Part shown: one piece after another, positions 5,001 through 53,939 of the stretch
How positions within the stretch are numbered: the first letter of the stretch is position 1
Layout: every line of letters begins with the position of its first letter
Program-made: the position numbers and the translations under genes
Notes under the pieces: model-generated
The model's input: only the letters and a program-made list of their open reading frames with translations
The model's database searches: none
What the model was told of the DNA's origin: nothing
From: Rhizophagus irregularis
Taxonomy: Eukaryota; Glomeromycota; Glomeromycetes; Glomerales; Glomeraceae
Reading direction: 5' to 3'
Assembly: GCF_026210795.1 (NCBI RefSeq)
Contig: NC_089429.1
Location: 3,348,001-3,412,000 of the forward strand
Length of the DNA stretch: 64,000 nucleotides

Positions 5001-5668
5001 GTTGTCGGGCTGGTAGTGTGTCTCGCTAACGCTCACCCCACCTCGGCCTCACGGCCTCGCAGTACCTCCTTCCCCCTCCATGGGGTAGAGAATTCCCCCA
5101 TATATACTACCGCCATGGCCACAGTGGCCATGGCTGGTCACAGTACTTTCCAACTTCTTTTTTTTACTCCATTTTTTCTTATATATAAAACTACTATGAC
5201 CACTATGACCACTATGACCAGACTACTAAAAAGTGGATAAAAACGCGAATAAAGCCAAAATCAGACAGAATATCCGGTCATAGTACTGGCCACAGTTCAA
5301 AAAACTTATGATAATACTATGGCCACCTTAGTTAGCCCCTCAGGCTCTAAAACCCGATTCAAGCTATGACCACCCTTTATCTACTTACCTGGGACACCGA
5401 ACTATGCCACCGAACTATGACCACCGAACTATGACCGCCGAACTATGACCACCGAACTATGACCGCCGAACTATGACCACCGAACTATGACCACTCTATG
5501 TCCCAAACTATGGCAGCCGAACTATGGACACCTTAGTCAGCCCCTCAGGTTCTAAAATCCGATTCAAGCTATGGACACCTGCCCCTCTATCTCACTCGAA
5601 AAAATATATTCGGCAATTGAAGATTAGGTAACTATAAATTAGTACTCGATTTGATAGAACAAAAAATG
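5001..5668 (+). repeat. left terminal inverted repeat of the Maverick-like element
   Basis: Matches the reverse complement of 53071–53939 almost throughout, apart from about 200 bp present only on the right. It contains a perfect 23-bp palindrome (5112–5134, centred on CCACAGTGG), a minisatellite of a 15-bp unit CCGAACTATGACCAC (5395–5530), and a shared promoter-like segment near 5617 (AATTGAAGATTAGG). Identity ends at the ATG of the first gene (5666–5668). Confidence 0.9.
5617..5665 (+). promoter_or_regulatory. TIR-borne upstream region with TGAAGATA-like motif
   Basis: AATTGAAGATTAGGTAAC lies about 40 nt before the ATG at 5666. The same sequence stands before the helicase gene at the other end, because both lie in the TIR. 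Related TGAAGAT/TAAAGATA motifs precede at least four other genes of the element. A promoter role is inferred from position and recurrence. Confidence 0.5.
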
Positions 5669-6191
5669 ACATATACCGTAGAAAAGTTGGCAGGAATCTT
5701 TAGCCGCACAGTCCCGGATGTTATGGGTATCAATAGGGAGATCCTAAAAAGCCACCAAAATCTGCACGCAGTATCAGTAATCCCCGAACTTGTAGGCCAT
5801 ATCCTGGAACGTATTCCAAGTAGCAATTTTAGACCGCATCTTCTAGAAGTCAGCCCAATCTGGAGAGCCGAAGCTGAACAAGTACTCTGGAAGCGGCATA
5901 AAGAAGCTGAGAAGGTATACAAACAGGCAGTAGACTACTACAGGGAGGCCATTGACAATTTCAATGAAGCCGATCAGAAAAAATACACTAGGTTCGCAGG
6001 AATGGTGGCAGTAGAAAGAGCTCTCCTCAGATGTGACTTTATAACGCAAGAGTCCGACTGGGGAGAAATGGACTCAAATAACGTATAACATCCAATTGCT
6101 TAAAGAAGGCCGCACTCTTGATGACTCAGACGATGAATCAGATGATGGAGAGGTATCTCTCGATGACTCAGATGATGAGGAATACTTTTAG
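5666..6191 (+). pseudogene. unknown Maverick-element gene with acidic tail, frameshifted
   Basis: I do not recognise this protein. It begins MTYTVEKLAGIF at the ATG that forms the inner edge of the TIR, and runs about 140 residues of mostly helical, charged sequence. The original frame stops at 6088, but a shifted frame continues through TYNIQLLKEG to an Asp/Ser-rich tail (DDSDDESDDGE, ending DDSDDEEYF, stop 6189–6191). That looks like the true C-terminus after a small indel near 6060–6080. It is transcribed inward from the left TIR, mirroring the helicase at the right end, so the same TIR promoter may drive both. Confidence 0.6.
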
Positions 6192-6200
6192 AAGGCGATA

Positions 6201-6521
6201 CTAATCCGTCTTCCTCTTTTTTGCCTCCTTAAGGCATTTATCAATACACTGTTTACACGCGTCATCAGCCTCTAAAATTTTTTGCCCGAGTTTTTTGCAT
6301 TGCCGATTGTACGCCGTCTGATGTCTTTTAGCTGCGGTTTCTTTTTTCTTCTCCTTGGTTTTCTTTTTGATAACCCAGTCTATCCCAGTAAAAGTATTCT
6401 TATGCATCCCACAAACTACACAGTCACCATGTAAACGATAGCGGCCATTTGTGGTCATATCTTGTATTTCACTAGCAGTCTCGGTTTCCTTCTTACACTT
6501 TAGGCAGTAAAATCGTGTCAT
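6201..6521 (-). CDS. small zinc-ribbon protein (DUF5679-like)
   Basis: A 106-residue protein starting MTRFYCLKCKKETETAS, with a second cysteine pair in GDCVVCGMHKNTF near residues 32–42. The CxxC…CxxC layout with the intervening 'NGRYRLHG' core resembles the short zinc-ribbon domains (DUF5679 type) found in several large DNA viruses. A Lys-rich stretch (KKKTKEKKKE) and further Cys pairs (CKQCIDKC) follow. I chose the ATG at 6521, not a longer upstream frame, because the zinc ribbon starts immediately and the start lies 45 bp from the divergent integrase start. Role unknown; nucleic-acid binding is plausible. Confidence 0.6.
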   Translation of the reverse strand: MTRFYCLKCKKETETASEIQDMTTNGRYRLHGDCVVCGMHKNTFTGIDWVIKKKTKEKKKETAAKRHQTAYNRQCKKLGQKILEADDACKQCIDKCLKEAKKRKTD

Positions 6522-6565: not shown

Positions 6566-7659
6566 ATGTCGCATTTAGAGAATTACTACAAATACTACAA
6601 TCTCTCCAGAGTACCGGCACGAATTCTAAAAGGTGAGGAGCACTACAACCTATATAAAAAGCCCCTAAAAAAGAAGTTATCAGAGCATCCACGAGTAGTT
6701 GTATGGAAACCAAATGCAACACATCAGGCAGATCTTGCAGAGATGCCAGTCGACCCCAAAGGATTCCACTATTTCCTCGTAGTGGTGGAAGTCGCGGGTA
6801 AACAAGTCGATGCAGAACCCCTAAAGGATAAGACTGCAAATAGGGTTCTAAACGTGGTTCGTAAAATCTACAGAAGAAATCGTATTAAGCCACCAACACA
6901 CAGACTGGAGACAGACTCCGGATTAGAATTCACTAACGACCAGGTACGTGATTTTTTCCTGAACAGCCTAAGGGTAATGATGAGGTTCAGGCGAACCAAG
7001 GACGGGACAAAACAGCAATCATCGCTGAACGAGCCATCCAAGCAATCCAGGAACCTCTCCTAAAACGAATGGTGGCGCGGGAGTTGAAGACCGGGGTGAC
7101 GTCCGTGGAATGGTCAGAAGATTTCTGTGATGTAGTTAATAAAATAGATGAAATCTGGCAGAGAAATCCCCCAGACATTCCGACAGGGTCACCCAAAGTG
7201 TCAAAAAAGACGGAACTTCTCTCTGAAGGAACACATGTCCGAGTCAAGTTAGACGAACCTATTTCAGTACTCGGGAATAAACTCCATGGAAAATTTCGTA
7301 CAGGTGACATAAGATGGAATCCCAATATCCGTGTCATCAAAAAAATGATCCTCTCACCTGAACAGCCTCCTACGTATCTTCTTGATGGACCACACGAGCG
7401 TCTAGGTGTATCCAGATGTGCGTACACCCGAAAAGAGTTGCAGATTGTTCCAGAAAATGAACATCCCCCACCTGACTCCGTGATAAGAGGGCAACTCGAA
7501 AGATTTGTACCTGAGCGGATACTCCGGCATCGCATCAGGAAGGGTCAAGACCAGTATCTAGTCAAGTGGGAACGATACCCAGATACCGAAGCCACTTGGG
7601 AACCCGCTGACCGGTTGGAGGAGGATGTCCCTGCCTTAATCCGCAAGTTTTGGAAATAA
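6566..7659 (+). pseudogene. Maverick/retroviral-type DDE integrase with C-terminal chromodomain, one frameshift
   Basis: Would cut and join element ends to target DNA. Catalytic residues are visible: Asp in HQADLAEM (residue about 56), Asp in LETDSGLEFTND (about 117), and, about 36 residues later in the next frame, Glu in IIAERAIQAI, a DD35E-type spacing. The C-terminus (about 7516–7656) is a chromodomain with QYLVKWERYPDTEATWEP, expected to bind modified histone tails and bias insertion into heterochromatin. The frame breaks between about 6960 and 7020; the rest reads cleanly from 7069. The ATG at 6566 (MSHLENYYKYYN) is chosen over an earlier non-ATG opening. Chromodomain integrases occur in both Polintons and Ty3/gypsy elements; here no reverse transcriptase or RNase H accompanies it. 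Confidence 0.88.
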
Positions 7660-7673
7660 AAAATAAATATTCC

Positions 7674-9896
7674 CTATTTTTTGTCTCCTCGATTCACATC
7701 AGAAACTATCGGGATAAAAACATTCTTCTCATTACAAGTAAGGGCGATATGTTCACGTGATTCATGGACATCATAATTGTAACGTTTCAGACACGTCCGG
7801 CTCAATCCAATCTCCTTATGCTTGTAATCGCTTAAAACCGCGAGATTCTCAGTGATTACACAATCAGGGGTTAGTTTGATTGACACACCTTTTACCATGC
7901 CGAATGTCCTACCAGAACCCGGAGCGCCAGATATGTTATGTGTAATACTCTTGTCGATATCCAACCCTAATTCTTCAGCGGCTTCCCTCTGAATAAAAGA
8001 CGCGTTAGCACAAGTGTCTGCTAAACACTGAATTGCTATCCCATTGACCTTCCCATCCAGCGCTAAAAGATCTTTAGTATTCTCCAAACGAGCTATGTCA
8101 ATATCCATCGGGTCATCTTCCCTGATATCCTCTTCTTGTTTTTCCTCAACTAGGTCTTCCGGAATCTCCGTACTTTTACGAGCAGACTTTAATTCTTCCC
8201 AAAGAATCTCGCGGAGTAATTTTCTAAAATCTGCAGACCTTAATAAACTTAATGAATCATTTTTGGTGACGGCTTTTATAAGTGTGGGCTTACTACTAGT
8301 AACCTTCACAGGAATCTTAATAGGAGTCATTTTAACTGATTTTTTTGGAACAGATTTAAGAAGTTTCAAGATACTTACACCCTTATCCGAGTTTACTTTT
8401 TTTTGTACTTCGAACCGCACAAATCCGAAAACCACCTTCCTCATCGGGAACAATTTTCAAGTCATCAAAACTCGCGGTATTAGTATCAATATCCATAGCA
8501 TCATCATTAAGATCAAGGTTTCTCATTGCTCGGGCTAATTCCAGATCATCGCGTCTATCTTTAGCCTTCTGAAGTCTCTTTGGAAATCTTTTAGACGTCT
8601 CATATCCCATAATAAGATCAATAACATGTTGATCATCCTCACTAGTCCACTCAGGAGCATCAGGGTCACCAGGGTCATCACCAAAATTATGATCTACATA
8701 ACCATCATCCCAATCTGGCATCCCTGATGATCCTGAACAACGCGTGGCCGTGGCTTTGGCCGAACAGGTTTAATCTGTTGTCTATAGACCGGTGGTTTAC
8801 GAACTGGCTTAGATGCTTGTAATTGTTTAAATTGTGCCTGGAAATTCTTGGTAAGTTCCTCGGCTTGTGCCTTGAGCAATTCTTGTAATCGTTCTTGAGT
8901 AATAACGTCTGTCGACCTTTGTATTACAGCACCTTCGTGTGGAGTCACGGGATGAGTATAGCCAGCCAATTCCTCTTTTTTAGCCTTTTCAATACCCTGA
9001 CGCCTTTGTAATCCATAGAACATTTCGCCCTTTCATCGCTCAAGATCACTCAATCTATCGATTAATGTATTAAGAGGTGCCGCCCCGATTCTGGAAGCTT
9101 CAATAACGTTTTCTGGCAAAAGTCCTTTATAGAACTGGTCAGTAACCATAATTCGATTATATCCTACAATATCCCCAGCCCTCTCAACTCGCTTGTAGTA
9201 AGATCGAACAGGTTCACCTTGTTCCTGGTAAAGGTTACTAAATCGTATTTGAAGTCTTTCTTCCACGACGGTTGGAAAATTTGTGCGCATATGCATAAAT
9301 GCTTGATCCAGGAGAATCCCCTGTAAGACTATCGGTTGATTCTGGGCAGCAGCATTGAATGGACCTCCATGATCTCCCAACCCATTAACGGGTAGATGAG
9401 TAGGACGTCCGCCCGCACGCCTCCACTGCTCTTCAACTTTAAAATTCGTTCTAACGATATCAGCGCGTGACGGGAAAAATGCGTCTCCAATAGTTACCGC
9501 CGCATTAGCCGCAACTAGAGAATATGCATGAGCAGCAGATCCAGGCACATAAGTATTAGGATGTAGTCGTCCAGCACCAGCATTTTCAGGAACAACCAAA
9601 GCTCTGAATGCTCGGCGAGTAGCACTGGCTCCACCATTTGCAGCAGCTACTAACTGAATATTCGAGAGTTCCCAATTTTTTCCAGTAAGTTCCACATCAA
9701 ACCACCTTGCCGCTTCATTTCTCATACAGCTACGAAGAACCCCCATCGCTCGCACCCGACCAGGAGGCGCACCGGCATCGTCCAATGGATCAATACCAAC
9801 GGTATTAATATACCCTAAAAAGTTATCAATAAAAAGATTAAGATCTTCATCTTCCCGACCATGAAATATGGGGGCAGCTATACCAACGGCAGCCAT
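7674..9896 (-). pseudogene. Gag–retropepsin polyprotein (retrotransposon-type capsid and aspartic protease), broken
   Basis: One decayed gene of about 740 codons in four pieces: 9896–9033, then in frame past a TGA to 8694, then 8721–8383 and 8453–7674 in other frames. The first part (MAAVGIAAPIFHGREDEDL) has Ty3/gypsy Gag capsid features: FIDNFLGYI, GVLRSCMRNEAARWFD, a major-homology-like LQIRFSNLYQEQGEPVRSYY, and DQFYKGLLPENVI. A Gln-rich coil and an acidic linker follow. Last is a retropepsin-like domain with KVNGIAIQCLADTCANASFI, where DTC replaces the usual DTG/DSG, and a later hydrophobic motif LAVLSDYKHKEIGLS. Known Polintons use a jelly-roll capsid and adenain-type protease; here this module sits in their place. 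No CCHC knuckle is visible. Confidence 0.8.
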
Positions 9897-10582
9897 ATCG
9901 TATTTTGTGGATGGTTGAGAGGAGGTGGAGGAAGGTTCAATTGTCTAATCCGAAACCATTGTACTTGGATACGCAGAGCGGCTATTTGTTGAAAAAGTCG
10001 ATTCCTAAGACGTCCCAATGTCTGAATTCCAAAAAGAACCCGATTATTGGCATATACAAGCCAATTTCATGCCGCATCACGCTCGCCTATAGCTCTATTA
10101 CGTTCACCTATAGCTCTATTACGTTCTCCTCTCATAAGATTATATTGCTGCTGAAGACGACGATTAGTCGTCCGCATACCACCAAACTCACGTTCCAATT
10201 CAGCCAAATTAGCTTCTAAACTAGTAATAGTATCTTGTACGTTATTTAGCTCATCTTGTGTAAGACCTAACAAACCCGTTTGAACCTCGAGTTCATCTTG
10301 TAATTCATCACGTTCTTTTCGAGATCGATCACGTTCCGCTTTTAATATATCACGTTCTTCATATGTTTCTCTACAGCGATGAATTAATAAATTAAGAGCA
10401 TGTTTAAGACGATGGTTTGCATTTTGTACATCTCGATTAACAACCATGCGATCACTGACAGTTAAAAAATCTGTTAGATCCTTAATTACCGCAACTAATG
10501 GTATATTATTCATATCACACAAATCCCTAGGAGGCGGTCCAGTAGGCTCTGAAGGAGTATAAATTGCAATTGGTGTCGACAT
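9878..10582 (-). pseudogene. coiled-coil protein overlapping the Gag start
   Basis: Begins MSTPIAIYTPSEPTGPP and becomes a long heptad-like coiled coil (ERDILKAERDRSRKERDELQ; later GERNRAIGERNRAIGERD). An in-frame TGA at 10067–10069 interrupts it; the frame then continues for about 60 residues to a Pro-rich end (LNLPPPPLNHPQN) with stop at 9878–9880. Its last 19 bases overlap the Gag ATG (9896) in the −1 frame, so it could be an N-terminal extension joined to Gag by frameshifting, or a separate scaffold protein. It is divergent from the ATPase gene (32 bp between starts). Confidence 0.6.
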
Positions 10583-10613
10583 CGTATTTAAACTAAGATA
10601 GAATAAAATTCAA
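10583..10613. promoter_or_regulatory. short divergent promoter region
   Basis: Only 31 bp separate the starts of the coiled-coil gene (minus) and the ATPase gene (plus). It contains CTAAGATAGAATAAAATT, an AAGATA core like the motif upstream of other genes in this element. Shared bidirectional control is inferred. Confidence 0.35.
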
Positions 10614-11802
10614 ATGGATCTTTATGTATACAATTTGGACGAGTACACAACCGACTCGAGACAGGATAATGAGTTTGCCCCATCATGGCCTTTCCGTCTT
10701 GCCGTAGCAGGAAGTTCTGACTCAGGTAAGACAACTATGATTATTAATTTGTTAATGGGAGACAAGAAGGCAAAGGAGGATGGCGAAAGGTACATATTAT
10801 GTGATGCGGTAATTCTAGTTGGCAGATACCTCGATGAACCGAAGTGGGCAGTCGTACGTGATTTTTCAAAGAAGAAGAAATTCCGTTTACCGCAGTATCC
10901 CATAGTGAGATTCCAAATGTTAAGGACTTCAACTCCACCCAGGCTACTGTGGTAATCTTCGAGGATTTGATGGATGCGCCTAAAAAAACCCAGGATCTCA
11001 TCACTGGATTTTTTACATACGGGCGTCACAAAAATATCTCGTGTATCTATGTGGCCCAAAGATTCTTTACCATTCCCAAGGCTATTCGTGAAAATGTGAA
11101 TTATATTTCCCTACATGGAGGTCACGGAAGTTTGACCGATACTAAGAGGATCATCCGCCAGTATACAGAAGAATCGGAGTTACTAGCTCCAGTAATCGAT
11201 GACCTTACTCTACAACGCGAATTTATAGTATTTGATCTTAGAAGATCCAAGAGCGATCCGTTATCTATTCGGGTTAGATGGGATACTAGTCTCAGTTCGA
11301 TCACCGATCAATCTCAGTTCGATCCTAGTTCGATCTCAGTTCAATCCCCGTTCGATCCGAGTTTGAACCCAGTTCAATCAAAGTTTAGTTCCTATGGCCA
11401 GAAAGCCGTAGCTGAAGCAAAAAAGTCCTCCCAGCTAATCGAGTTTGCTCGGAAATATCCGTCGCCTAAAGAGAGAAAACACCTTCTCGTATCTGGTGTT
11501 ATAGCTAAGAACGCAGATACCTGGATTAAGTACGTCTTTCGGGAAGCCTACGGACTATCTGGTAAGACCTTGGGATCAGACTTCCAAAACTTCTTGCGAA
11601 AGTACGGGATAGGACCACGAAGACTGAAATTCCAAAACCTGAGACCGTAAAGGAGTTATTCTCCCGATATGAAGTCCTGAAGTCTAGTCACCCTTTGGAT
11701 AATAAAAAATTAATAGAAGGCATCGGGGTCCTTTTACAGATCTTTTCTAAGGGTCATATGGACCGTCGAGCATTACGAGTAGGGATCAATAGTATTTTGT
11801 AA
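10614..11802 (+). pseudogene. A32/FtsK–HerA-like packaging ATPase, two frameshifts
   Basis: Polintons and many large DNA viruses use this ATPase to move DNA into capsids. The N-terminus MDLYVYNLDEYTTDS leads to a Walker A, AVAGSSDSGKTTMI (residues about 31–44). Walker B, TVVIFEDLMDAPKK, lies at about 10943–10984 in the next frame, followed by GRHKNISCIYVAQRFF, typical of the sensor region. The frame breaks near 10880–10905 and again near 11610, after which TTKTEIPKPETVKELFSRY runs to the stop at 11800–11802. At 11290–11400 a short internal repeat gives QSQFDPSS, QSPFDPSL, then QSKF. The ATPase is retained although no jelly-roll capsid is seen, so its packaging partner here would have to be the Gag-like protein or an unrecognised one. 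Confidence 0.82.
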
Positions 11803-11815: not shown

Positions 11816-12367
11816 TTAGCAACCCATCTCGTGAAGTTCTTCCGCAGAAGCCCTAAGAATCATGGCGCTTTTTTTACGTCCTTCGAAGTCAATCCGTAGC
11901 ATCCTAGCTTTTAACCCAATAGCTCCTGAGGCTCGAGAAGCAAAGTTCTTAGTCATCGGATTTCTTACATGACTTACATAGTTTTCATAGAATGTAGTAA
12001 AGGGTTCGTCAATACCATCTGGGTATGTATTCCGTAAGAACTGATATAAGGCAATTTCCCCACTGTCACATCCAATGGCTATAAGCTGTTCAAGAAGCCA
12101 CTTCCTAGTATCCTCGTATGAATCTCCGTCCATAATTTTCATATCCAGTCTTTGTGTGAATAATTGCGTAAAATCCGCATTACTTGCCCGACGGATAATC
12201 TGGACCAACTTATCCCTGGCAAGTCCCAAGGCTTGTAAAGGTTCACTCTCGTCGCCAATCTTCTTTATAATCTGTCTATACAACACGCTGGATAATCCTC
12301 TATATGCCGCTTTTGCAGAGAATACTTCACAGTTCTGACACTGGTTTATTACGATTGATGTTGACAT
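11816..12367 (-). CDS. uncharacterised Maverick-element protein, 183 aa
   Basis: An intact frame, MSTSIVINQCQNCEVFSAKA, with no family I can name. It is mostly helical by composition, with a possible metal pair QCQNC at residues 9–13 and a basic C-terminal region (KARMLRIDFEGRKK). The stop lies only 14 bp from the end of the convergent ATPase gene. Upstream, a TTTAAAGATAAC motif (reverse strand, about 12430) resembles the motif before other genes. It could be a minor structural protein, but nothing in the sequence proves that. Confidence 0.6.
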   Translation of the reverse strand: MSTSIVINQCQNCEVFSAKAAYRGLSSVLYRQIIKKIGDESEPLQALGLARDKLVQIIRRASNADFTQLFTQRLDMKIMDGDSYEDTRKWLLEQLIAIGCDSGEIALYQFLRNTYPDGIDEPFTTFYENYVSHVRNPMTKNFASRASGAIGLKARMLRIDFEGRKKSAMILRASAEELHEMGC

Positions 12368-12527
12368 GGCTATCTTTCTTTGATTATTCGCTCACTTAGT
12401 ATCCTTCACAATCTTTTTTATATATTGTTATCTTTAAATACCTGTCATTTGTATAAAAAAAAATAACTGGCATTAAGGGATCGACCGTTGAAAAGACCGG
12501 AGGACCGGAGGACCAGAGGACTGACCA

Positions 12528-13112
12528 TTAGGAAGCGCAGTCCTTGCACAACTTGTCCGTTAAGTCACTTGGGCTCACAGGCATGAGACATTCCCTACAC
12601 AACTCAATATTAAGCTCTGCAAGTCTCGGGGCATGGTCCTCCAAAGTTCGTGGACGACCGGAAGGACCGGAGGAAGGTGTCCCGTTAGTCGTATCTTGCT
12701 GTAAGATAAAATCATCATATTCATCTTGGTCAGCCTGAATAGCGGCCCTGATTTGTTGTATATCATTAAAAGTTAACCGCTGGCCATCAAGATTTTCCTC
12801 ATTATAGCGCGTTTCATTGATGATTTCCTCTATAAGCTCCTCCTCTTCAGAATGAACAAGGTAGTAGTCCTCAACTACCTCGTAGTCACTCTCAACCAGT
12901 CTATGATACGTTCTAGTACCGTGTTGAATATAGCGTCCTGTATCTGTATTTAAATATACAGGTTGTTCCTGGGGTGGAGGCGGTACGGTTTGTCTACGGA
13001 CAAGCCTTCCATCGATATAATCATGGGATTCCATAACTATTCGATTAAAGGTATCTCCACCAACACGGATTGGACGTCCGATTATAGGATTAGTTATATA
13101 AGGGTATGACAT
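12528..13112 (-). CDS. protein with two GR-x-I/Y-x-x-L repeats and a C-terminal zinc ribbon
   Basis: An intact 194-residue frame starting MSYPYITNPIIGRPIRVGGD. The segment NPIIGRPIRVGGDTFNRIV recurs in diverged form as NTDTGRYIQHGTRTYHRLV (about residues 54–72). 'NPxTGRxIxxGGxxY' motifs of this kind appear in structural or adaptor proteins of large DNA viruses. An acidic middle and Ser/Pro/Gly linker lead to LCRECLMPVSPSDLTDKLCK at the C-terminus, two CxxC pairs likely binding zinc. The reverse-strand motif AAATTGAAGATAAC lies about 40 nt upstream of the ATG. The LINE insertion point is about 70 bp upstream, so its promoter may just survive. Confidence 0.6.
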   Translation of the reverse strand: MSYPYITNPIIGRPIRVGGDTFNRIVMESHDYIDGRLVRRQTVPPPPQEQPVYLNTDTGRYIQHGTRTYHRLVESDYEVVEDYYLVHSEEEELIEEIINETRYNEENLDGQRLTFNDIQQIRAAIQADQDEYDDFILQQDTTNGTPSSGPSGRPRTLEDHAPRLAELNIELCRECLMPVSPSDLTDKLCKDCAS

Positions 13113-13139
13113 GTCTTTTTTCTGTACGTGTCTACATAC

Positions 13140-13165: not shown

Positions 13166-13463
13166 ACCAAGTGACATCGTCATCAGTCCTTGTCAAGGCA
13201 AATATGGCATAGTAGCCTTTATCTTTATTAAATTTATTCAACGAACTTACAAAAATAAAATAAAATTTTCAAAGTACAAAAAAGAAAAATAAAATTAACT
13301 AAAAACAAAACTATATAGTCTCCAAAACAGTAATAAAGCTATAAAATTAATCTGAAAAAGAAAAATCGCATAAAACTAAAACTATCCTGATCCCCCGCCA
13401 AGATATATTCCAACCTAAGAAGAAGCAACTATGCAAACAAACTAACGAACAATGCGCCCATTA

Positions 13464-14665
13464 TTAAAATCGGCACACCACCCTGCTAAAGCTGTTAGTA
13501 AGTTGCACCGTTAGACGACCCATAAAACCCGAATAGTGATTAAACCAAGGCAAACCATATTTCATCGAGTTCTTTAAATAATCAACGTCGGAGTCACGTG
13601 CGGCGTCGGAAAGGGTCGGAGGAGGTAAAGTTGAGAAAGGTAAGTACGTAGACTTTGGCAAATTTGAAGGCCGAGAAAGTTTGAGTTTATGAGTAATATT
13701 CATCGCGTCTTCCCATTTAGATTTATCATAGGAGCGCGGGAGCCAAATTCGTTTTCTAATCTTTTGGATAAAGTGATTGTGGATAGCAGAGATAACCTTC
13801 ATCGCAGAGTTACGTGGAATAGAAAGTTCTTCAAACAATTTGACAAAGGATTTCGGAAGGCAGCCACGGACAAGGCTATATGAAGTCCAATTTGAAGAAA
13901 AAAAGGACCAACAAGGAAGAGATTTAAATTTGTTAATAATTAAAAAGGGATCTTTCTTAACAAGATCACCAGCTTCTTGAAGTTTGTTGATAAAATGATG
14001 TTGGTAGGAGAGGAGAATCTGTTCCATAGCGATTCGTCTACATTTGCACATAAACAAGTGCATAAAATCTTCCTTGGAGTCGAGGCACGAACGACACAAT
14101 AAGATGTCAATATACAAGTCCGGGCGAATTCTTTTAAGATGTTCCAAGGTAGGCAAATCTTCCAAAAAGAGTTTGAATTTGAAGGTGCGATGAAAGGAAG
14201 CATGAGCACGAGTAAATGAAGCATCATGCTGAGGTTCGGAGTTTAGCAAGAACCAGGTAAGATCCCAATCAATCACGAAATCTGAGATAGAGGATAAAGC
14301 AATGGTAAAGTTAAAACGCGATAAACGCGTTAATCTATGCATCCACAGCATTTGCGAATATTGCTTAAATAGGCGTCGTGGGTTGGATTCGCATAAAATA
14401 TCATCATATTTTAATAAGAAATCGTGAGGAGATACTTGATCCAGATCAGAAAGAAGAATTGCTGAAGAAGAAATATGCGCAGAGTTGGCCAGAGAGTCCG
14501 CGTAGTCATTATAGAAATTACCAGAGTGACCTTTCACTTTAACAGCCGTGACGGATAAAGATTTGGAGGAAATGAGACGTTCAATAATAGCCCAGAGTTC
14601 AAAATTGGTGGTCTTGTAATAAAGCCTGCTATTGGAATAGGAAAAGGTAGCACATAGACGAAGAC
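13464..14665 (-). pseudogene. LINE ORF2, 3' portion (end of RNase H and C-terminal zinc-binding region)
   Basis: Continues the ORF2 interrupted at 39217. It opens with GLRLCATFSYSNSRLYYK, then VKVKGHSGNFYNDYADSLAN, holding the final RNase H His/Asp motif. Downstream, LCRSCLDSKEDFMHLFMCKC gives a CxxC…HxxxC zinc-binding pattern common in C-termini of fungal LINE ORF2 proteins. The frame is open to the stop at 13464. Alone it cannot start properly, since the 5' part lies 24.5 kb away. Confidence 0.8.
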
Positions 14666-43680: not shown

Positions 43681-45813
43681 TTATTGCGAAGGAGCTGAAG
43701 CTCGATCGGAAGGAGAACCACCAAGAGAAGCGATAAAACCTTGAATGGAACCAGTGAGCGATTGCAAAGTATCTTTAATCGCTTTTTGATCTTGAATAAC
43801 CGAGTTCAATTCGTCATGCGGGGAAGGGGTAGAAGTGGATGTAAGAGTTGAGTGCAGAATATTATTGAGTGTAGATTTGGGGGAAGGGGAATTCTTGACA
43901 CCAGAAGATAAGGGAGCATTAGGATGTGGGATTAAGGTACCAGTAGTTTCAGGAGGGTCTTCTTCCATCCGATCAGGTTCAGAATTGACAACAGGAGCGG
44001 AGGGAGGATGGATGCCTAAATGGGCTTCAATAGCAGATAGCCGTTGATTGTTAAGTTCTAGATTTGAAATGCGGGATTCCACACGAGCAACATCTTGTTG
44101 AAGATTCTCTAAAACATTAAGAATCTTAAGGGCAGCCTCAAGAGCATTAGGAGAATTCGGATCCGGGAGTGGAGCACGAGCATTGGACGAAAAAGAAACA
44201 GATCTATCTTTGCCTTTTCGATTATTGGAAGGCGTACGTCCATGAGCAGTTGAGGAGGAGTTAACTGGACCAGAGGAGGAGGGTTTAGTATTGTTAGAGC
44301 TATTATTATTATTATTAGAGCGGTTAGAGTTTGAATTCAGACGCTGAGCAGAGGCAGAACGATCTCGGGATTTAGAGCGAGAGCAAGACCGAGAAATATT
44401 ACGCGGAGCTCTTTGTTGGGCAGGTCTTTGGACAATGTTGAAGCGTTCTTTAAGGGCGGCAACAGGGTCGCGTGTACGTGAGCGTCCGCGGCGTTGATTG
44501 AGCGGGCAGGAGGTAGGAGCACAACCAAGCTTACCACATCTGTGGCAGAGGGCTTTCGAATCGTTGGAAGTACCCCACCGAAGAGTACGACCTTGGAATC
44601 CAATTGTTTGTTCCATAGCGGCATCCATTGTCTCTTGCGAGTTGAAGGTAACATAAGCCCAAGGCTTGGGTTTATAAGAATTTAGGGAAAGGGGAATGTT
44701 AATAGCTTTTGCTCCATGTTCTTTGACCAAAGGAGCGAGATGGATATCTTTAGTATTAGCGGGAAGTCCAGAGAGAACAGCCACGAACACTCTACGAGCA
44801 GCTTTTTGATCTAAGGAGTAATGGCAAGGGGTAACACGCAAGCAGGTGGAAAAGCAATAAACTGCCTATTGAGTTGTGAAACGGGAGATGGCATCGGCAT
44901 GATCATAGACAATGCGAGCTTGTTGCATCTTAGCACCTTTCCTTGAGTAGAGATGGAGGGCAAGGAGATTGCCAAATTTCTTGAAGTAGGATTGGAGTTG
45001 CGGTTTAGTAATGAAGAACGGTATATCCGTGACTTGGATTGCACGGAGGTCTTCATCAGACCGGAGCTGTTTGGGATCGTACTAGTGGAATTGAAGGTCT
45101 GGAAAGTCGGAGTGTGTGCTTCCAACACACAAGTCACGAGCCTCCGCAGTATGGAAGTGAATGATGAGACGTTTAGCGTCTCCTGAACCAGTCATACGAG
45201 CCCGACCGGTATATGATTCATATGTTTCTAAAAACAAATTGTTAACGGCATCAATGATTGCCTTATTAGTTTTAAGTTTCTCTAGAGTTTGGGGAGTGGA
45301 GTTGGGCGCAGCCGCAGCCAGGAAATCTTGACGATTAATGGTAATGGTAGGGGAGGGATCGACAGCCTGATCGGGCGATGTACCATCATTCACGTCCATA
45401 TTAGGGGACGCGTTAGGGGATGAGTTATTTTCTTTGTTTCGGGGTGCATGAATTGACGCGTTAGTACCAGAAGACGCGTCTTGGCCAGGCGCAGGAGGCG
45501 CAGCAGAATTATTCGGGGTAGAAGCTTGAGTATTTTCTTGAGCGGTGCTGCGGGAATTATTTTGTTGAGGAATAGCGGTCGAAGTTGAACCAACTAAACC
45601 ACCATCAGCCGGCGCGTCGGCAACGAAATCTTCATAGTCTTCATCCATGGAGTCTTTTGTAAGTATACGGGAACGTTTTTGAGAATTATTATCACTATCA
45701 GAACCAGAGTTGTCAGAGAGTTGTTTTTTATTATTTTTCTTTTCTTGACGAGCAGCCTTATTACTATTAGGATTATAGCTGCCGCCACCTCTTCTAGCAA
45801 GGTTTCTAGACAT
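43681..45813 (-). pseudogene. LINE ORF1, Gag-like RNA-binding protein with two in-frame TAG codons
   Basis: A single 710-codon frame begins MSRNLARRGGGSYNPNSNKA and is interrupted by TAG at 45082–45084 (codon 244) and 44866–44868 (codon 316). The first part is acidic and Pro/Ser-rich. Two RRM-like stretches follow (IQVTDIPFFITKPQLQSYF; RRVFVAVLSGLPANTKD with WAYVTFNSQETMDAAM). Next come a zinc-knuckle-like CHRCGKLGCAPTSC and Ser/Arg/Asn-rich RSCSRSKSRDRSAS. A C-terminal coiled segment is present. It would package LINE RNA. It ends 47 bp before ORF2 begins. Confidence 0.8.
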
Positions 45814-45917
45814 GTTAGAAGGTATGAGTTGGGTAAAATATAAGAGTTGTTAGTACGAAGATATAAAATTTTCTTTCCGAAAATTTTTGGTTAATAGATC
45901 GGCGGTAAGAGATCTAT

Positions 45918-46740
45918 CATCAGTCCTATCAGTCCTATCATCAGTCCTTGTCAAGGTAAACATAGCATGAGCTTGAATTTTATTAATTAATGCCGAAGTA
46001 ACTTTAGAGAAACACAGAGTGATCTAAAAAGTACCGCAACAAGTGCAGAACTAATAGAAAAACAAAGAACAAATAATCTTCCGAAATTACAAATAAGAAA
46101 AGCTAAGATTAAAAACCCCACCCTCTCTATATAAATAACTACGGCTACTCCCCCCAAATATATCTCAAAATGAGTAAAGTCGACTATGCTATACGTAACC
46201 CATCCAGCGCCGTACCCACTCCTAGAATCGGTAAAGAACCTCCGAGCTACCATTAGCACTATCAAAAACGCCTAAAATTCAATTTCCCCTATTTGACTAC
46301 ATACTATGGATAACAAACCTATTTCACAAAGACCTCCGGGAACTTTTTAGTGTCGTGCAGTCCAGCCGATGGGGAACTTTTTAGTGTCGTGCAATCCCTG
46401 AAGGGACACCCACCTCATTTCGAATGATCCCAAACGGAGGACACCCACCTCATTGCGAACAATCCATCGACCTAAGATCTACCTAGATAAGTCAATCCAA
46501 TGATAGTCCATCATGTGACCACCTTGATCGGCATACTACAAAAACTGCGGTACCCAACCTGTCACCCCCCTTATCACCCCAATGATGATCGATTTTGAAA
46601 ATTGTAACACCAAGCCACCATGACGATCAAATTTTCCAGTATCCCCCCAATCAGTCCTTGTCAAAAAATGCTAGGATGCCTGATGATGAGTCATCAGTTC
46701 TTGTCGCAAAACACGAGGATACCTGATGAATAAGTTATTG
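45918..46740 (-). mobile_element. stacked LINE 3'-end fragments
   Basis: On the minus strand, a 3'-terminal motif of GACAAGGACTGATGA type occurs at about 45940 (with extra TAGGACTGA copies), 46655 (ending GACTGATTGG) and 46700 (GACAAGAACTGATGA), as well as at the true 3' end at 13181. The 45918–46650 piece shares an ordered 3' tail with the 13181 end and has no ORF2, so it is a 5'-truncated copy. A minus-strand frame at 45987–46265 lies in this non-coding tail. A direct repeat 'GGGAACTTTTTAGTGTCGTG' lies at about 46330–46400. Confidence 0.6.
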
Positions 46741-47144: not shown

Positions 47145-47474
47145 TTAGGGGTCCACAACCATCCCATTCCTAAGCATTTTCTCCATAATATAAAGCTGAT
47201 CCTCGGTAAGGCGGTTTATCCATCTTTTATAGAGGTCGTTTACATCTTCAAACGTTATCCAGTCAATTTCCCTCTTTATATAATGCTTTCCGAGAGCTTG
47301 GATTTCACAGTACACATCCCCGATCGTAGTGGCATAATTTTCCCACCTCTTATATGCCTCTCGACGAACTTCCTGCCACCACACTCTATCTACCTTACTC
47401 GCTGCAATAAGGTCAGTATCCGGGATCTTTGTGACAATGCGTTCGACTATTTCTACTGGTAATCGGTCCAACAT
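47145..47474 (-). CDS. F-box-like protein, 109 aa
   Basis: MLDRLPVEIVERIVTKIPDT then DLIAASKVDRVWWQEVRREA is a recognisable F-box (LP.EI…I…D…AS.V…W), the module that links substrates to SCF ubiquitin ligases through Skp1. After it come about 60 residues of helical sequence without leucine-rich or WD repeats. The frame is intact. Upstream, AATTGAAGATAGCTATAG (reverse strand) lies about 30–40 nt before the ATG, as in other genes of the element. F-box proteins are used by many viruses to redirect host protein turnover; a similar job here is inferred. Confidence 0.65.
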   Translation of the reverse strand: MLDRLPVEIVERIVTKIPDTDLIAASKVDRVWWQEVRREAYKRWENYATTIGDVYCEIQALGKHYIKREIDWITFEDVNDLYKRWINRLTEDQLYIMEKMLRNGMVVDP

Positions 47475-47583
47475 GATGTTATGTTACTTATACTATAGCT
47501 ATCTTCAATTACTGTATGCCTATTACACATGGATAAAAAATATAGACTAAATTCGTACAGAATCGTAGGACCACAGGAGCCGC

Positions 47584-48054
47584 TTATGCAAGAAGTTCTG
47601 TTAAGGTTTTCTCGGCCTCGTTTTTAGTAATAGCTCGCTTTGGGGGACCGGTTGATGAGTCCTTAGTCGCATTATAATACAATTCGAAGAGGGCCTCAAG
47701 CTTATCTAGGAGAGCTTGTTTATTCTTGTATGATTCGCGGATTTTTGCTATTTTAGCAGTATATGCCGCATTATCTGGGAAGAGTTTTCTGGCCACGAAC
47801 TTCACATATGATACAGGAGAATTTGCCGTCTGGATTCGCTTGATATACTTCACGTGGTCCTGGACGAGGTAACTGGTTTTGCTAAACCCAGATACTAATG
47901 CGACTACTATAGTATCTTTTAATGCGCGGATAATCTTGGGGACAGTTTCGTCAGTGATAACACTAGGCTGAATGCGCGATGCCTCGTAAATAACCTCCTC
48001 ACTAGTGCTGTCAGTGCTGTTAACAATGCTTGCGAATTCGGTATATGTTGACAT
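47584..48054 (-). CDS. uncharacterised Maverick-element protein, 156 aa
   Basis: Intact frame MSTYTEFASIVNSTDSTSEE, helical and Lys-rich (KIRESYKNKQALLDKLEALF), ending KNEAEKTLTELLA. No known domain is seen. CAGGTAACTGAAGATTTATA (reverse strand) precedes the ATG by about 25–40 nt. Confidence 0.55.
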   Translation of the reverse strand: MSTYTEFASIVNSTDSTSEEVIYEASRIQPSVITDETVPKIIRALKDTIVVALVSGFSKTSYLVQDHVKYIKRIQTANSPVSYVKFVARKLFPDNAAYTAKIAKIRESYKNKQALLDKLEALFELYYNATKDSSTGPPKRAITKNEAEKTLTELLA

Positions 48055-48136
48055 GATTCTTTGTACTTTGTAAAAAATATAAATCTTCAGTTACCTGTTT
48101 ATTCGAATGAGAAAAAATAAATATGAAACTCGGGGT

Positions 48137-48633
48137 TTACACTTGGGATACTGCAAGGCAGTAGAAGCGTCGCTTGGCCTTTTGTATCAATGGAGAGCCT
48201 GGTCTATATAACCAGGGGATAGCGACTTTCTGGATGATCTTAGCCGCTTTATTGTTCCTTCTTTCTATATATCTCCTAAAGGCTTTCTGGATCATTTCAG
48301 CATGATGAGTATAATAGTCGAAATTAAAATGCTTCGAGCAACTATATAAATGTAGTCGTACCGCTTGATCCATGGAAGCATCGGCTCCCCATCCGCGATC
48401 AATAAAAGATTTACAGTAGGTACAGTACCACCTATTTGGTAGTCGTGATACTATTCTTCTAATGTGCACAATATAAGCATATACAGCTTTCGACGAGACC
48501 TTGGATAAGGTAGCCGCCTATGAAAACCTATTCTACTACAAGTCTCATAATATTGCACAGCATTCTGAATGCGCTTAGCCCACGTGTGGAAACTTTCGTC
48601 GTCTTGTCTACCTAATCCGTCGGTGTTTTGCAT
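48137..48633 (-). pseudogene. zinc-finger plus IQ-like protein, probably frameshifted
   Basis: Two overlapping frames appear to be one gene: 48633–48451 (MQNTDGLGRQDDESFHTWAK) and 48469–48137. The second has NRWYCTYCKSFIDRGWG, then HLYSCSKH, a CxxC…H…C…H zinc-binding pattern, followed by IQKAFRRYIERRNNKAAKII, which resembles calmodulin-binding IQ motifs, and a basic tail. No ATG-initiated start exists before 48633 in the first frame (TAA just upstream of codon 48675). Function unknown; nucleic-acid or calmodulin binding is possible. Confidence 0.5.
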
Positions 48634-48726: not shown

Positions 48727-50578
48727 TCATGTCCAGATAACCTTGTTCGCATTTTTCACATGGCAGTATCCCACGGTTTCAAACTTGAAAGTCTTTAGAG
48801 TCGTATCTGCATTCTCTGAACAAGTGAAAAGCGCGGGGCTATCTGGCTGCTCTTCTAAAATAAATCCATCCGTATGGATACGTCGTACTTTATCCTTGTA
48901 TGGTTGAATTGCCTCAGATGTGATTTTGCGACCACGTGCTAATAAGAATGGGGCGATCCTGGGATACTCACCTTTGAAGGGATTACCCGGGTTTGTGAAC
49001 TGGAATCGCCACTGGTCAGATCCTACTGGTATGATAGAGTCGAGTGTATGGCCCTCTGGAAATGTAAATGGGTCTGTTTGATCTGCGGTGAGTGTCTTGT
49101 AATTACGCTTCCTCTGGCATAATGCTCCCCATAATGTGTTGAGGACTCGCTTTGCCACGCGGCCAGCTACGCCACCTTGGTTTTTAATTTTCAAGAGGAA
49201 GTGTACATACTCACCAAATATTACAGTTCCAGGGATTCTTGCTTCTCTATCATATATCAATGCATTTGGCTTCCCATCCTGTATTAACTGTATATTGAGA
49301 CCAAGTTTTTTTGCTCGTTGTAAGTCGATGAATGTATAGATTCCCCTTTTATTCTGTCGGAAGAGAATATTATTCCCACTTACCTTAGCATGGAATAATC
49401 CATACAAGGCATAACCCCTGTGGTCAACAAAGTCATTAAGTGTCTGGAATTTACCCCGTCTGATTGGAAAGTTCGCGTTCGATTGTTGGATACTCGGGTA
49501 TAAACTTGTTGCATCGTACTGTCTTCCATAGCCCTTCCACTCGTTATCTGCCCAGATTAATCCTCCCATCATTGCATCACTTAACCACTCTGCTTCTATC
49601 GGGTCAAGAGGATCATTGGCTGGAATCCCTACACTTAATCGTTCGAATAACCAGAGAGCCGTTCTTTTGTAAGACCAGTTATGGTATGATAAGTCGATTC
49701 CTAAACTGAACTTCTTTGTAGTTTGTAAGAAGATATCCCGCTCCTCGTGGATTTTCTGATATGCTTCTTCAAGAGTTTCATATACTCCAGTCTTACGGTT
49801 TTTCTCGACGGGGATGAAAGAACTCTTGGAATTCTTAGTCTTTTGAAACTGCGCAATTGTGCAAGACTTAACTGTTTTGCCGTTGTATATTGTGACTACA
49901 TTATTGGTCCCATCTTCATAGTATACAATGGGTAAATTACGCTTTCTATCTATTTTACTGGGGTGGAGTCTTCCGGGATTTAACGCGATGGAGTAATGGC
50001 CTTCTGATAGGATGAGAGTCGCACGTCTATCGGACTTACTCTTAGAGATTCGGGTAATGTCCCCCACAATATTAATTGCGAGACTTCCTGCAAGTTGTTC
50101 AACCTTGTCCATGCATGAAACTGGGATGGGAGCATCGCGATTGAGACCTAATGCCTTTTTGATATACTCGGGCTTTTCGATTGACTTTGGCATTTTAGAG
50201 AATGTGCCGTAGATATTTTTCAGGCATTCATACAGGCAATCATTTAGCTTCCCCGTTGCAACCTCCTGCAACCGGTGGGGCATCTACATAAATTATGAAT
50301 CGTTCAAAATAATCAGGGTCTGCGTCATCCGGTAGTTGTGCTTCGTCGTAATGATCCAAGAGTGAGAAAAGGCTAGCTGGTTGGTTTCCTGATGTCCAAC
50401 CACCGGGTTTCCAGTTTTCATAGGGAAGTAAAATCTGGAATTTACAATTTGGATATTGGGATTGGAGTCGCTGACCGAGTCTTGCTATTGCTCCTCTGGA
50501 AAAGCGGACGCCAGAAAACTGGAGTTCCTTGATGTCAGGTCGTGTTGGTAAGGCGCGTGCAATTTTTGAATGAGTCAT
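48727..50578 (-). pseudogene. protein-primed-type DNA polymerase B, N-terminal frameshift
   Basis: Would copy the element from its ends. Numbering from MPHRLQEVATGK at 50283: motif A QYDATSLYPSIQ (Asp about 257), motif B KRVLNTLWGALCQRK (378–392), motif C RRIHTDGFILEE, where His-Thr-Asp (470–472) replaces the usual Asp-Thr-Asp. No exonuclease motifs precede motif A, unlike typical Polinton polymerases. The first 100 residues hold LNDCLYECL and, 75 residues on, EGHYSIAL, a Cys…His spacing like OTU-type cysteine proteases; this is only suggestive. A preceding piece (50578–50240, MTHSKIARALPTRPDIKELQ) belongs to the same gene in another frame, with an indel near 50250. The family is highly repeated in Rhizophagus. 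Confidence 0.85.
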
Positions 50579-50685
50579 TTGATATACTATGAATTGTATT
50601 CAATTGTAATATAGCTTTTCTTTATAATAAGTGTAGGATAATTTAGGACAAAAAAATATAAGATAATTACACGTCACTTATCTTA

Positions 50686-53073
50686 TTAAATGGAGTCAAT
50701 CATATCACAGACCTCATCAAAATACTCATCATCAAACTCGTCGATGATTCCATTGGCAGCTTCCCATTCACGTTCCATATTAGTCTTTGGACGTTCCTCG
50801 GGGATCTCTCGCGCTTTACCCTTATCTGCCCTCATAGTTTCATAACCAGAGGGGTGGGAATAATTTCGGCATTACGATTATCCTTGTATACTCTTATTAA
50901 ATCCGCGAGTTCTTTACGGCTAGGTGTTTTAGGTAAGTATCCATTATATTCAATCCAGTCCTTGAAACGGTCTACTACTTCCCTAAGGTAGTACTGGTAC
51001 TCGTCCTCAATACGCGTTGTGGGACATTCCTCTACTTCAAACGCGAGTATTTCCCAGTCATAGTCATCTGACGCATCTTGATACTTGGCCCATAATTCCT
51101 TACCTGTATTGTAGAGTTCATTGAAGACCTGGTCTTTTGAATTTTTAACCCACGGTTTGCGATCCTATCGGTGTCTTTCATGACAAGCCCAGTGCGCTCG
51201 AGTGCCTTCCTTTGGTTCAGGATTCCGGTCGACTTCTGGTTCTGTGTCGGGTTCTGGGATAAGTTGCTCTTCGGGAGCCGGTTCTGGGTCAGGCTTAGTG
51301 ACAGATGCAGAAGATTCTGCGGGAGACTCGGATTGTTGTTCAGGAGTTGGGTCCATGGTTGTAGAATCCGAGTCTGATAATAAGTCATCTAAGATGTCAT
51401 AGTTATCTGGCTCGGGGGCAGACGGTTTTTCAGGAACTGGGTTTGCGGTTGTAGAATCCGAGTCTGATAACAAGTCGTCTAAGACGTCGTAGTTATCTGG
51501 CTCAGGGGTAGACGGTTTTTCTTCCCTTGACTCTTGTGGGCGTTTTTTTAAGTGATCAGGCTTGGGTGGAAGCGGTGGAGGAGTCTTGCGAATTACAGGT
51601 GCAGGTTTTTCCTCGACAGGTTCGGGTTTTTTCTCGGCGGGTTTCTCGGCAACTAACTCTACTTCCTCTACTGGTGCTTTTTGTACGTCTTGTACATCTT
51701 GGATTACTTTACTAAAATTCTCCGTGATTTTTGCTTTATCTAGTATGTAATAGTTTATTCGGGCACCTGAACGTCTTGGGCGGGTTTTAGGAATGAATTG
51801 TTTAATCTCCATGCCAAACTTATTATCACTAAGTGTTTTGTTTTCGCCCTTCTCACTGCACCAATTCTGATAAGTGCTATAGAAATTTGTACACGAGATT
51901 TCAAGTGTGTCGCAATTGTCGGGCCACATCATTTCAAGGTAATATTGTATAAAACGCTGGGGATTTGGGATACTTGCTTCAATTAACTCCCGTTTCATTT
52001 GAGTATCAGGAATAGATCGGGGATTGAAGCTAGTTAAGTCTCGGCTAAGTAGATAGGACATGAAGGAACTGGCTGTATCCGGATTTTCTAATACTTTTAC
52101 GAGAGAACCGAAGTATTCTCTATTGCCTTTATATTTGGCTGAAACATTGAGAGCTACAAATCTTTCATCTCCCATTTCTATGCGGATTGGCATAGCATGA
52201 TTACTGAGGATCATGTAGCCAGCAAAGTCATCAATAACCTTTACATCTATCCCCTTTTCCTCAATAGAGATGTAAGACTCGGTGATTAAACTCTTGAGTC
52301 GGTTGTTTGCCGTGCCGTTCCTTGCCTGACATATCGCATTCATTGAGGATAATAAGTTTTTTGGCACGAACAGCCGCATTGAACCTTCCCATTACATCTT
52401 CAAGACGGGTAGTGGAGAGGAAGTTTTCACGGCCGAGAATACGTTCTCCGATAAAATCGGTTAAGATATTCTTACCACATCTGGGGGGACTGCGCATGAT
52501 AATTGCTGTACCGGGTTTTTTGTCTGGATTTTGAATTAGAAATGCGAGCCAGTTGAGGATGTATATGGTTAATTGCTTGTCCTCTGCACACCATACCTCA
52601 TGAACGTGTCGGATGATTGGATTAACTAGATTTGGTTTAATGCGCTCAGCGGGTTGGGCCCTGAAACCTAGGAAGAGATTGAAGAATTCAGGATTATACT
52701 TTGGTGCGTTTGGGGGATAAGGCATGAAGTTTACATCTGTATAACAGATCTTTGCGATTGAAGCTTGGAGAAGAAGATCCTTTAATTTTGTGGATGTGGT
52801 CGCGTCACTGTCTTCTCCGGTATCTGACCGAATAATTACCTTGTGCTTAGTAGAAATCCCCTTGAGATCTGCGGTGAACTCGAAGTATATGCTTCCATTG
52901 TAAGCCTTCTTTTTTCTAATCCACATGCTAAATTTTGTGGTGATGAAAGCCACAGAAGCCGAGATTGCTGAATTGACGCTTTCTTTCGTGTGTGTACCTA
53001 CACATTTTTTAAGAAGGTCATCGTAGAAGAAACGGTTGTTAGGGTTAAAGATTGCTGGAACTTGAGCGGCCAT
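50686..53073 (-). pseudogene. D5-like SF3 primase-helicase, several frameshifts
   Basis: Starts MAAQVPAIFNPNNRFFYDDL at 53073, the exact inner edge of the right TIR. Helicase core: FNLFLGFRAQPAE, a D5-type lead-in; Walker A IIMRSPPRCGKNILTDF (about 191–207); Walker B KKLIILNECDMSG (238–250). The frame shifts near 52315–52340, continuing as NNRLKSLITESYISIEEKG (arginine-finger region) to RRSGARINYYILDK. A Pro/Glu-rich linker follows, with a duplicated DNYDVLDDLLSDSDS unit, then a shifted piece DYDWEILAFEVEECPTTRIE and a final MRADKGKAREIPEERP… ending at the TAA at 50686. No archaeo-eukaryotic primase motif is evident in the 150 residues before the helicase. Unwinds DNA for polymerase B. Confidence 0.82.
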
Positions 53074-53939
53074 TTTTTGTTCTATCAAATCGAGTACTAA
53101 TTTATAGTTACCTAATCTTCAATTGCCGAATATATTTTTTCGAGTGAGATAGAGGGGCAGGTGTCCATAGCTTGAATCGGGTTTTAGAGTCTGAGGGGCT
53201 GACTAAGGTGTCCATAGTTCGGCTGCCATAGTTTGGGACATAGAGCGGTCATAGTTCGGTGGCTATAGCTCGGTGGCATGGTTCGCTGGCCAATGGGCGG
53301 CGGTCATAGTTCGGTGGTCATAGTTCGGTGGCATAGTTCGGTGTCCCAGGTAAGTAGATAAAGGGTGGTCATAGCTTGAATCAGGTTTTGGAGCCTGAGG
53401 GGCTAACTAAGGTGGCCATAGTATTATCATAAGTTTTTTGAACTGCGGCCAGTACTATGACCGGATATTCTGTCTGATTTTGGCTTTATTCGCGTTTTTA
53501 TCCACTTTTTAGTAGTCTGGTCATAGTGGTCATAGTGGTCATAGTAGTTTTATATATAAGAAAAAATGGAGTAAAAAAAAGAAGTTGGAAAGTACTGTGA
53601 CCAGCCATGGCCACTGTGGCCATGGCGGTAGTATATATCACAGGTCGAAATGCTAAAAATCGGCAAAAAAAATGGCGCGAAAAGCAGTGGCTATTTTTGG
53701 CTATTTTTGGCTATTTTTGGCTGTTTTTGGCTATTTACGAATTAACCTATACTATTTGTAAATAGTTTATACAAATTTGCGAATAGTTTATGCGATTTGC
53801 GCCATTTTTTTTGCCTATTTTTGATCATTTGACGTGTGTATGGAGAATTCTCTACCCCATGGAGGGGGGAAGGAGGTACTGCGAGGCCGTGAGGCCGAGG
53901 TGGGGTGAGCGTAGCGAGACACACTACCAGCCCGACGAC
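53071..53939 (-). repeat. right terminal inverted repeat of the Maverick-like element
   Basis: Inverted copy of 5001–5668 including the palindrome (53604–53626), the minisatellite (fewer and partly altered units) and the promoter-like segment. About 200 bp at roughly 53637–53845 has no counterpart on the left; it contains five runs of GGCTATTTTT-like repeats. Identity stops at the ATG of the helicase gene (53071–53073). Confidence 0.9.

Follow-up and report, generated by a model that had tools for sequence, protein, structure and literature searches.

A Polinton/Maverick element with Gag and protease genes

The window analysed here is a 64,000-nucleotide stretch of the genome of Rhizophagus irregularis (host assembly of 146.7 Mb in 32 contigs). 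It contains a 48.9-kb copy of a Polinton/Maverick element, at positions 5001-53939, bounded by terminal inverted repeats (TIRs). Between the TIRs lie a DDE integrase with a chromodomain, a family B DNA polymerase (PolB), a D5-like helicase, an A32-type packaging ATPase, a Gag-like protein and a retropepsin-like protease (Table 1). This gene set had been proposed in an earlier note on the same DNA and is confirmed here by profile matches and, for Gag, by its family profile and predicted fold. The span given in that note also holds, except that 13197-46649 is not Polinton; it is a long interspersed nuclear element (LINE) carrying a 24.5-kb insert.

The window copy is decayed, with integrase, Gag, ATPase, PolB and helicase all interrupted, and about 33 kb of its length is the nested LINE, including the CACTA-type insert. 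Undisturbed, the element measures roughly 15 kb, and two insert-free copies are 14.4 and 15.0 kb long. The two TIR arms of the window copy are 96.7% identical over 569 bp and 95% identical over the outer 103 bp, and TIR length in three copies is about 0.5-0.9 kb. The AAAAA flanks on both sides sit within a tandem repeat of the host.

Table 1 Features of the element in the window
Feature	Position	Strand	Remarks
Target site duplication AAAAA, left copy	4996..5000		5 bp; weak alone (poly-A tract)
Left TIR	5001..5668	+	starts GTTGTCGGGCTGG
ORFa	5666..6088	+	171-173 aa in other copies
DUF5679 zinc protein	6201..6521	-	PF18930, 2e-17
Integrase core, first half	6566..7063	+	PF00665 2e-7, just below cut-off; frame broken in window copy
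Integrase C-terminal part with chromodomain	7069..7659	+	PF00385 3.3e-18
Retropepsin-like aspartyl protease	7674..8456	-	motif LADTCANASF; PF13650 3.6e-8
Gag C-terminal region	8386..9032	-	basic stretch, no CCHC knuckle; two frames in window copy
Gag capsid region, CA-type fold (predicted)	9033..9944	-	early stop in window copy
Coiled-coil-like open reading frame (ORF) upstream of Gag	10067..10609	-
A32/FtsK-type packaging ATPase	10602..11650	+	two frames in window; 400-411 aa in other copies
p190, conserved	11816..12391	-
Protein with 2-cysteine adaptor motif	12528..13139	-	PF08793 1e-3, below cut-off, in another copy
Nested LINE, foreign to the Polinton	13197..46649	-	ORF1 of RNA recognition motif type, endonuclease, reverse transcriptase, RNaseH; 15-bp target duplication
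Insert with tnp2/CACTA-type transposase, foreign to the Polinton	14670..39213		PF02992; splits LINE RNase H
F-box-like protein (weak)	47145..47483	-
p168	47584..48090	-
p177 remnant	48137..48517	-	C-x2-C and IQ-like
PolB, vOTU-like region and palm, without exonuclease-sized region	48727..50599	-	two frames in window
D5-like superfamily 3 (S3) helicase (DUF5906)	50832..53118	-	in pieces in window; DUF5906 at 51168-53118
Right TIR	53071..53939	-	ends CCAGCCCGACGAC; about 200 bp extra compared with left arm
Target site duplication AAAAA, right copy	53940..53944		5 bp

Identity and frame arrangement of Gag and protease

The Gag capsid region of the window has no Pfam match of its own. The sequence profile of its family matches PEG10, and in each of two structure comparisons of the predicted Gag model, the 50 rows listed were all retroviral, PEG10 or Arc-type capsids. 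No family besides retroviral and retroelement capsid (CA) proteins appeared in these tables among the matches listed. The C-terminal domain of the model fits closely (about 2 A), and the N-terminal part aligns only with a large root-mean-square deviation. From the model, the Gag family is predicted to have the two-domain helical fold of Ty3 and retroviral CA, and the capsid-like identity proposed earlier is upheld by profile and fold. A PHROGs search with Gag-Pro returned nothing. Named matches of Gag relatives were all from Rhizophagus irregularis, and Gags of 44-60% identity occur in metagenomes. Pattern matches in viral contigs (13 stretches) and prokaryote genome contigs (40) included none that encodes a relative.

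Two Gag subfamilies, type A and type B, differ at about half of their residues. At 6 of the 30 type-A loci (L004, L005, L006, L009, L012 and L018), a Gag frame of 513-534 aa ends ...ACAAAAAAAAAGTAA, and an open protease frame begins 46 nt before this end, in the -1 frame. L020, also of type A, has the same Gag end and an interrupted protease; L011 and L017 have a run of A that is one shorter. At the remaining 21 type-A loci, the frames are broken, end differently or were left unresolved by our script. In type B, Gag and protease form a single 737-aa frame in two copies; 16 of the type-B gag rows list a 492-aa frame and 4 a 500-aa frame, and separate protease frames are mostly of 257 aa. Hence, the fusion of Gag to a retropepsin described in the earlier note exists in the two 737-aa copies, but not in the window copy, which has an early Gag stop and separate ORFs, and elsewhere the frames are mostly separate, with an overlap in the clean copies read.

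Linkage and mobility of the gag-protease genes

Own-genome protein searches gave 133 matches for Gag, 150 for the protease, 182 for the ATPase and 152 for the C-terminal part of the integrase; these searches score the best candidates only, and the totals are lower bounds. All Gag and protease matches were used, together with 111 of the 182 ATPase and 118 of the 152 integrase matches, leaving out second fragments, the weakest matches and unlisted ones. Merging within 2.5 kb yielded 112 gag, 125 protease, 110 ATPase and 117 integrase loci. For each gag locus, we asked whether a protease lay no more than 6 kb away in the same orientation, and an ATPase and an integrase no more than 8 kb away in the opposite one. 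All three were found at 99 of the 112 gag loci, and all 99 show the order integrase-protease-Gag-ATPase with fixed strands. The other gag loci lack only the ATPase (7), lack only the integrase (3) or have the ATPase alone (3). The full set of four genes is likewise present at 99 of 110 ATPase loci and 99 of 117 integrase loci, and none of the other genes is found at 4 loci of either kind.

Among 40 terminal-repeat matches, 26 had ends that face each other and were joined into pairs, giving the window element and twelve others, and 14 remained unpaired; the C4 and C13 copies were added. The gag, protease, ATPase and integrase genes are all enclosed in 14 of the 15 paired-TIR elements. A perfect 5-bp target duplication flanks 10 of the 15 pairs and a 6-bp duplication none, and mispaired ends agree in 2 of 210 cases. 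The fixed four-gene linkage, the enclosure by TIRs and the 5-bp duplications show that gag-pro moves within a single DNA transposon, of which the genome has about a hundred copies. Full copies with these TIRs therefore keep gag-pro, and keep it between integrase and ATPase, as the proposal in the earlier note implied. That the anatomy and conservation of this gag-bearing Polinton are as described here is hardly in doubt.

The remaining one of the 15 (C15:409901-417346; 7.4 kb) shares the TIRs and has a 5-bp duplication, but none of the four genes was listed within its bounds; it is perhaps a non-autonomous derivative.

Replication and packaging genes

In another copy, the integrase is an open frame of 376 aa that matches PF00665 above the cut-off (5.5e-9) as well as PF00385 (3.9e-17). 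The ATPase frame of the window (10862-11647, + strand) matches PF04665 at 1.3e-6; the ATPase of another copy matches it at 3.3e-9, above the cut-off, and also matches the terminase phrog_2666 (2.4e-8).

PolB, about 620 aa long in other copies, matches PF03175 over 48730-50283 (5.2e-6, 26.1 bits in the window; 25.5 bits in another copy; cut-off 25.8) and the DNA polymerase phrog_1907 (3.7e-5); a sequence search against the PDB gave no match. It carries vOTU-like Cys and His motifs, and its palm motifs are kept in most of 65 alignment rows. With these family B features, PolB is predicted to be of the protein-primed kind. By motif and length, tree and structure aside, PolB and the adjoining S3-type helicase appear mavirus-like. 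In the window copy and in three others that were fetched, both genes lie inside the element.

Purifying selection

Ratios of nonsynonymous to synonymous substitution rates (dN/dS) were obtained by the simple NG86 method on three or four copies per gene. Between types A and B, with dS ranging from 0.36 to 0.93, dN/dS is 0.06-0.07 for the integrase, 0.08 for PolB, 0.08-0.10 for the ATPase, 0.10-0.11 for p190, 0.14-0.16 for the protease, 0.15-0.17 for p168, 0.40-0.42 for Gag and 0.59-0.79 for the coiled-coil-like ORF. Within the 30 type-A loci, it is 0.42 for 17 open gag pieces and 0.21 for 26 open protease pieces. Gag and protease are thus under purifying selection, and Gag, though constrained, evolves far faster than the replication genes. 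Capsid proteins that face rivals or host factors often evolve fast.

Search for a jelly-roll capsid and an adenain-like protease

The unassigned ORFs of the copies read reach at most 270 aa, which is too short for a double jelly-roll. No Pfam match to an adenain/Ulp1-like cysteine protease was found among the ORFs scanned in the window and another copy. Searches of the whole genome with PF00770 and PF04451 gave no match, but they prove nothing, since the control genomes were likewise silent. The one other ORF that was folded, p190 (11819-12391), yielded an all-helical model of low confidence (pLDDT 48), too poor for a fold search. The profiles of p190 and p168 matched no solved structure in the PDB, which is weak evidence either way. 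As to the question raised earlier of a jelly-roll among the other ORFs, none was thus detected and all are too short for the double form; on fold, the helical p190 model is the sole indication.

A proposed Gag-shell cycle and its alternatives

The best reading of Gag-Pro, and a likely one, is that it constitutes the virion module. We also favour the wider view that the element is a self-synthesizing Polinton/Maverick in which Gag and retropepsin stand in place of the jelly-roll capsids and the adenain-like protease. Building on the gene content, the mobility of the element as a unit, the predicted Gag fold, the frame arrangement and purifying selection, we infer the following cycle. PolB and helicase would replicate the 15-kb element in DNA form. 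Gag would be made along with a Gag-Pro extension, through a -1 shift or, in two copies, in frame, and would assemble into a shell. The ATPase would load linear element DNA into this shell, which the protease would mature. The particle, together with the integrase, would then move to a different nucleus within the coenocytic hypha, and insertion with a 5-bp duplication would follow. It is plausible, at about even odds, that element DNA is the cargo of these particles. The same even odds apply to a bolder reading, in which a coenocytic fungus harbours DNA viruses, or transposons resembling viruses, whose Gag virions are processed by a retropepsin and receive double-stranded DNA through an A32-type ATPase.

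The earlier suggestion that the virion module was swapped for a Gag-protease gains support from the conserved linkage, and no jelly-roll was found in the copies read. Because the ATPase was kept and a different protease stands beside a different capsid-type protein, replacement is favoured over loss. Replacement would then be the historical course, with Ty3/gypsy, rather than another Gag lineage, as the presumed source. Overall, the data suggest a DNA element that has adopted the coat of a retroelement.

Several observations weigh against this interpretation. On the side of Gag, Foldseek E-values are only about 0.01-0.06 (best 0.011, none below 0.001), helical folds reach middling Z-scores by chance in structure comparison, and the Retrotrans_gag matches of the family fall below the curated cut-off. 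Unrelated families reach similar E-values in one or two Gag members (DHC_N1 0.0025, GCS 0.0033, Stathmin 0.0078), and no CCHC knuckle was found in the Gag frames tested or in 102 related proteins. Retropepsins usually read D-T/S-G. The motif here is DTC wherever found (35 of 39 sources, some of them overlapping), which makes the predicted protease activity uncertain. Constraint is weaker between the two recent B copies (dN/dS of 0.52 for ATPase, 0.40 for Gag and 0.29 for protease), as would follow from a loosening of constraint once a copy has inserted. Moreover, 5 of the 15 TIR pairs lack a matching duplication, and the linkage of PolB to the element was read in four copies, that of the window and the three fetched ones. 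Finally, an ATPase of a kind that belongs to jelly-roll viruses would have to serve a Gag shell.

Gag-Pro may alternatively be a selected working part that is not a DNA container, for example an interference factor against co-resident Ty3-type elements or rival copies, or an intranuclear nucleoprotein scaffold. Gag-derived restriction factors are known, and Gag and its coiled-coil-like neighbour are the fastest-evolving of the eight genes compared, as in an arms race. Nevertheless, we hold this to be unlikely: the packaging ATPase is under strong purifying selection between types A and B, a protease adjoining Gag fits shell maturation better, and nine canonical Polintons without a capsid gene also lack the protease and the ATPase (PMC4028283).

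The element could also be a virophage-like satellite that borrows the capsid of a helper virus, with Gag-Pro serving another purpose. Its PolB and S3 helicase resemble those of mavirus as described in PMC11071308, and large DNA viruses as past contacts are hinted at by the DUF5679 protein and the 2-cysteine adaptor motif, weak as the latter is. R. irregularis has had asfarvirus-like viruses: a region of this kind is integrated in one strain, but its authors report it absent from four others (PMC10640383). With Gag-Pro retained at nearly all element loci, such a satellite is highly improbable. We give as little credence to a diverged jelly-roll hidden among the small ORFs, with Gag added and not replacing it. 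Room for one is left by p168, p177 and ORFa, which the fold models do not cover, and by the PF00770 and PF04451 negatives with their silent controls; on the other hand, the ORF lengths, the all-helical, albeit poor, p190 model and, weakly, the p190 and p168 profiles speak against it. Chance insertion of a long terminal repeat (LTR) retrotransposon fragment into one Polinton copy, which the many nested elements of the window copy might have suggested, is ruled out for practical purposes by a position conserved at 99 loci, in two diverged subfamilies and with purifying selection.

Comparison with known systems

Like canonical Polintons/Mavericks (Polintoviricetes), the element has TIRs, an RVE integrase with a chromodomain, a PolB with a vOTU-like region, an A32/FtsK-type ATPase and a size of about 15 kb. 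It differs from them in having Gag and a retropepsin where no double or single jelly-roll capsid or adenain/Ulp1-like protease was detected in our searches, and in its target duplication of 5 bp, that of canonical Polintons being 6 bp. With Ty3/gypsy elements (metaviruses), PEG10 and Arc, it shares features such as a Gag of CA-type fold, the gag-then-pro order with a -1 overlap, an aspartyl protease, a chromodomain integrase and a 5-bp duplication, as in Ty3. Unlike Ty3/gypsy, it has a DNA polymerase, a helicase, a packaging ATPase and TIRs, and its integrase is on the opposite strand. Scanning of the element's own genes turned up neither a reverse transcriptase nor an RNase H, nor was a nucleocapsid knuckle found; the window does contain a reverse transcriptase, but it is that of the nested LINE.

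Where mavirus encodes capsid proteins of the jelly-roll kind, this element has Gag. With mavirus-type virophages it shares a PolB without exonuclease-sized region next to a separate S3-type helicase (PMC11071308), and also an RVE integrase and a packaging ATPase. Bidnaviruses offer a case of a Polinton-type PolB joined to an unrelated capsid (PMC4061559, PMC11071308); unlike our element, they are single-stranded DNA viruses with a parvovirus-type jelly-roll capsid and no Gag. The present element would add a case of a DNA element taking a retroelement coat beside this precedent of a foreign capsid.

For Glomus intraradices (now Rhizophagus irregularis), a 2021 paper (PMC7805220) states that a capsid gene could not be detected in the early Polintons. 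By its account, such cases encouraged the view that capsids had been lost and that the elements live purely as transposons; capsids have since turned up in some of the other cases, but not yet in R. irregularis. Excerpts of PMC8647823 place Maverick among the most recent expansions in R. irregularis, with numerous copies and low methylation, and those of PMC6431247 mention Gag solely for LTR elements. Among the matches listed, we found no description of a Gag-bearing Polinton in the open-access literature. If the Glomus Polinton of the literature is this family, the Gag-protease module is a concrete and testable candidate answer to its missing capsid. If the virions are indeed DNA-filled Gag shells, a Gag capsid would have turned from RNA to DNA packaging, and a capsid would have passed from a retroelement to a DNA virus amid the jelly-roll viruses; other capsid-less Polintons may hide similar swaps. 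If the shells do carry DNA, capsid identity and genome type would be less tied than virus taxonomy assumes.

Small ORFs, nested inserts and other helicases

Proteins with a 2-cysteine adaptor motif and DUF5679 proteins are kinds seen in large DNA viruses, so that the weak motif and the DUF5679 protein found here hint at past contact with such viruses. In L031, L033 and L037, the coiled-coil-like ORF shares about 63 nt with the beginning of the Gag frame. Crude alpha/beta propensities, which label this ORF beta-leaning, were too noisy and were not used.

The 24.5-kb insert at 14670-39213 is AT-rich and contains repeated palindromic units, CAAGAAAAGTTCGCGCGAATTTTTCTTG. The LINE that it splits occupies a point in the Polinton that is constant within one nucleotide, the 15-bp duplication in the window being ATCAGTCCTTGTCAA. 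In a survey of 20 sampled copies, 2 of them uninformative, the LINE is present at that site in 7 of 18 besides the window (L066, L074, L077, L080, L082, L083 and L084), and the site is empty in 11 of 18. Either the LINE targets this Polinton position, or an old insertion has been copied along with the element.

The helicase of the window type has 21 other near-full matches at 90-97% identity. A second helicase, only about 33% identical to it, occurs at some 50 other places, including the right end of L036 and L038. The presence of two very different helicases in these elements suggests gene exchange between lineages. Helicases about 42% identical were briefly considered as marking a second, capsid-bearing Polinton family; this idea was dropped, as the one locus read looks like a different kind of element. 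This locus (L039, 76-6047) encodes a primase-helicase-like protein of 1100 aa, an ORF resembling a recombinase and a small one resembling an aspartyl protease, which likewise reads DTCAN, all named by eye, and helicases of about 42% identity recur at other places in the genome.

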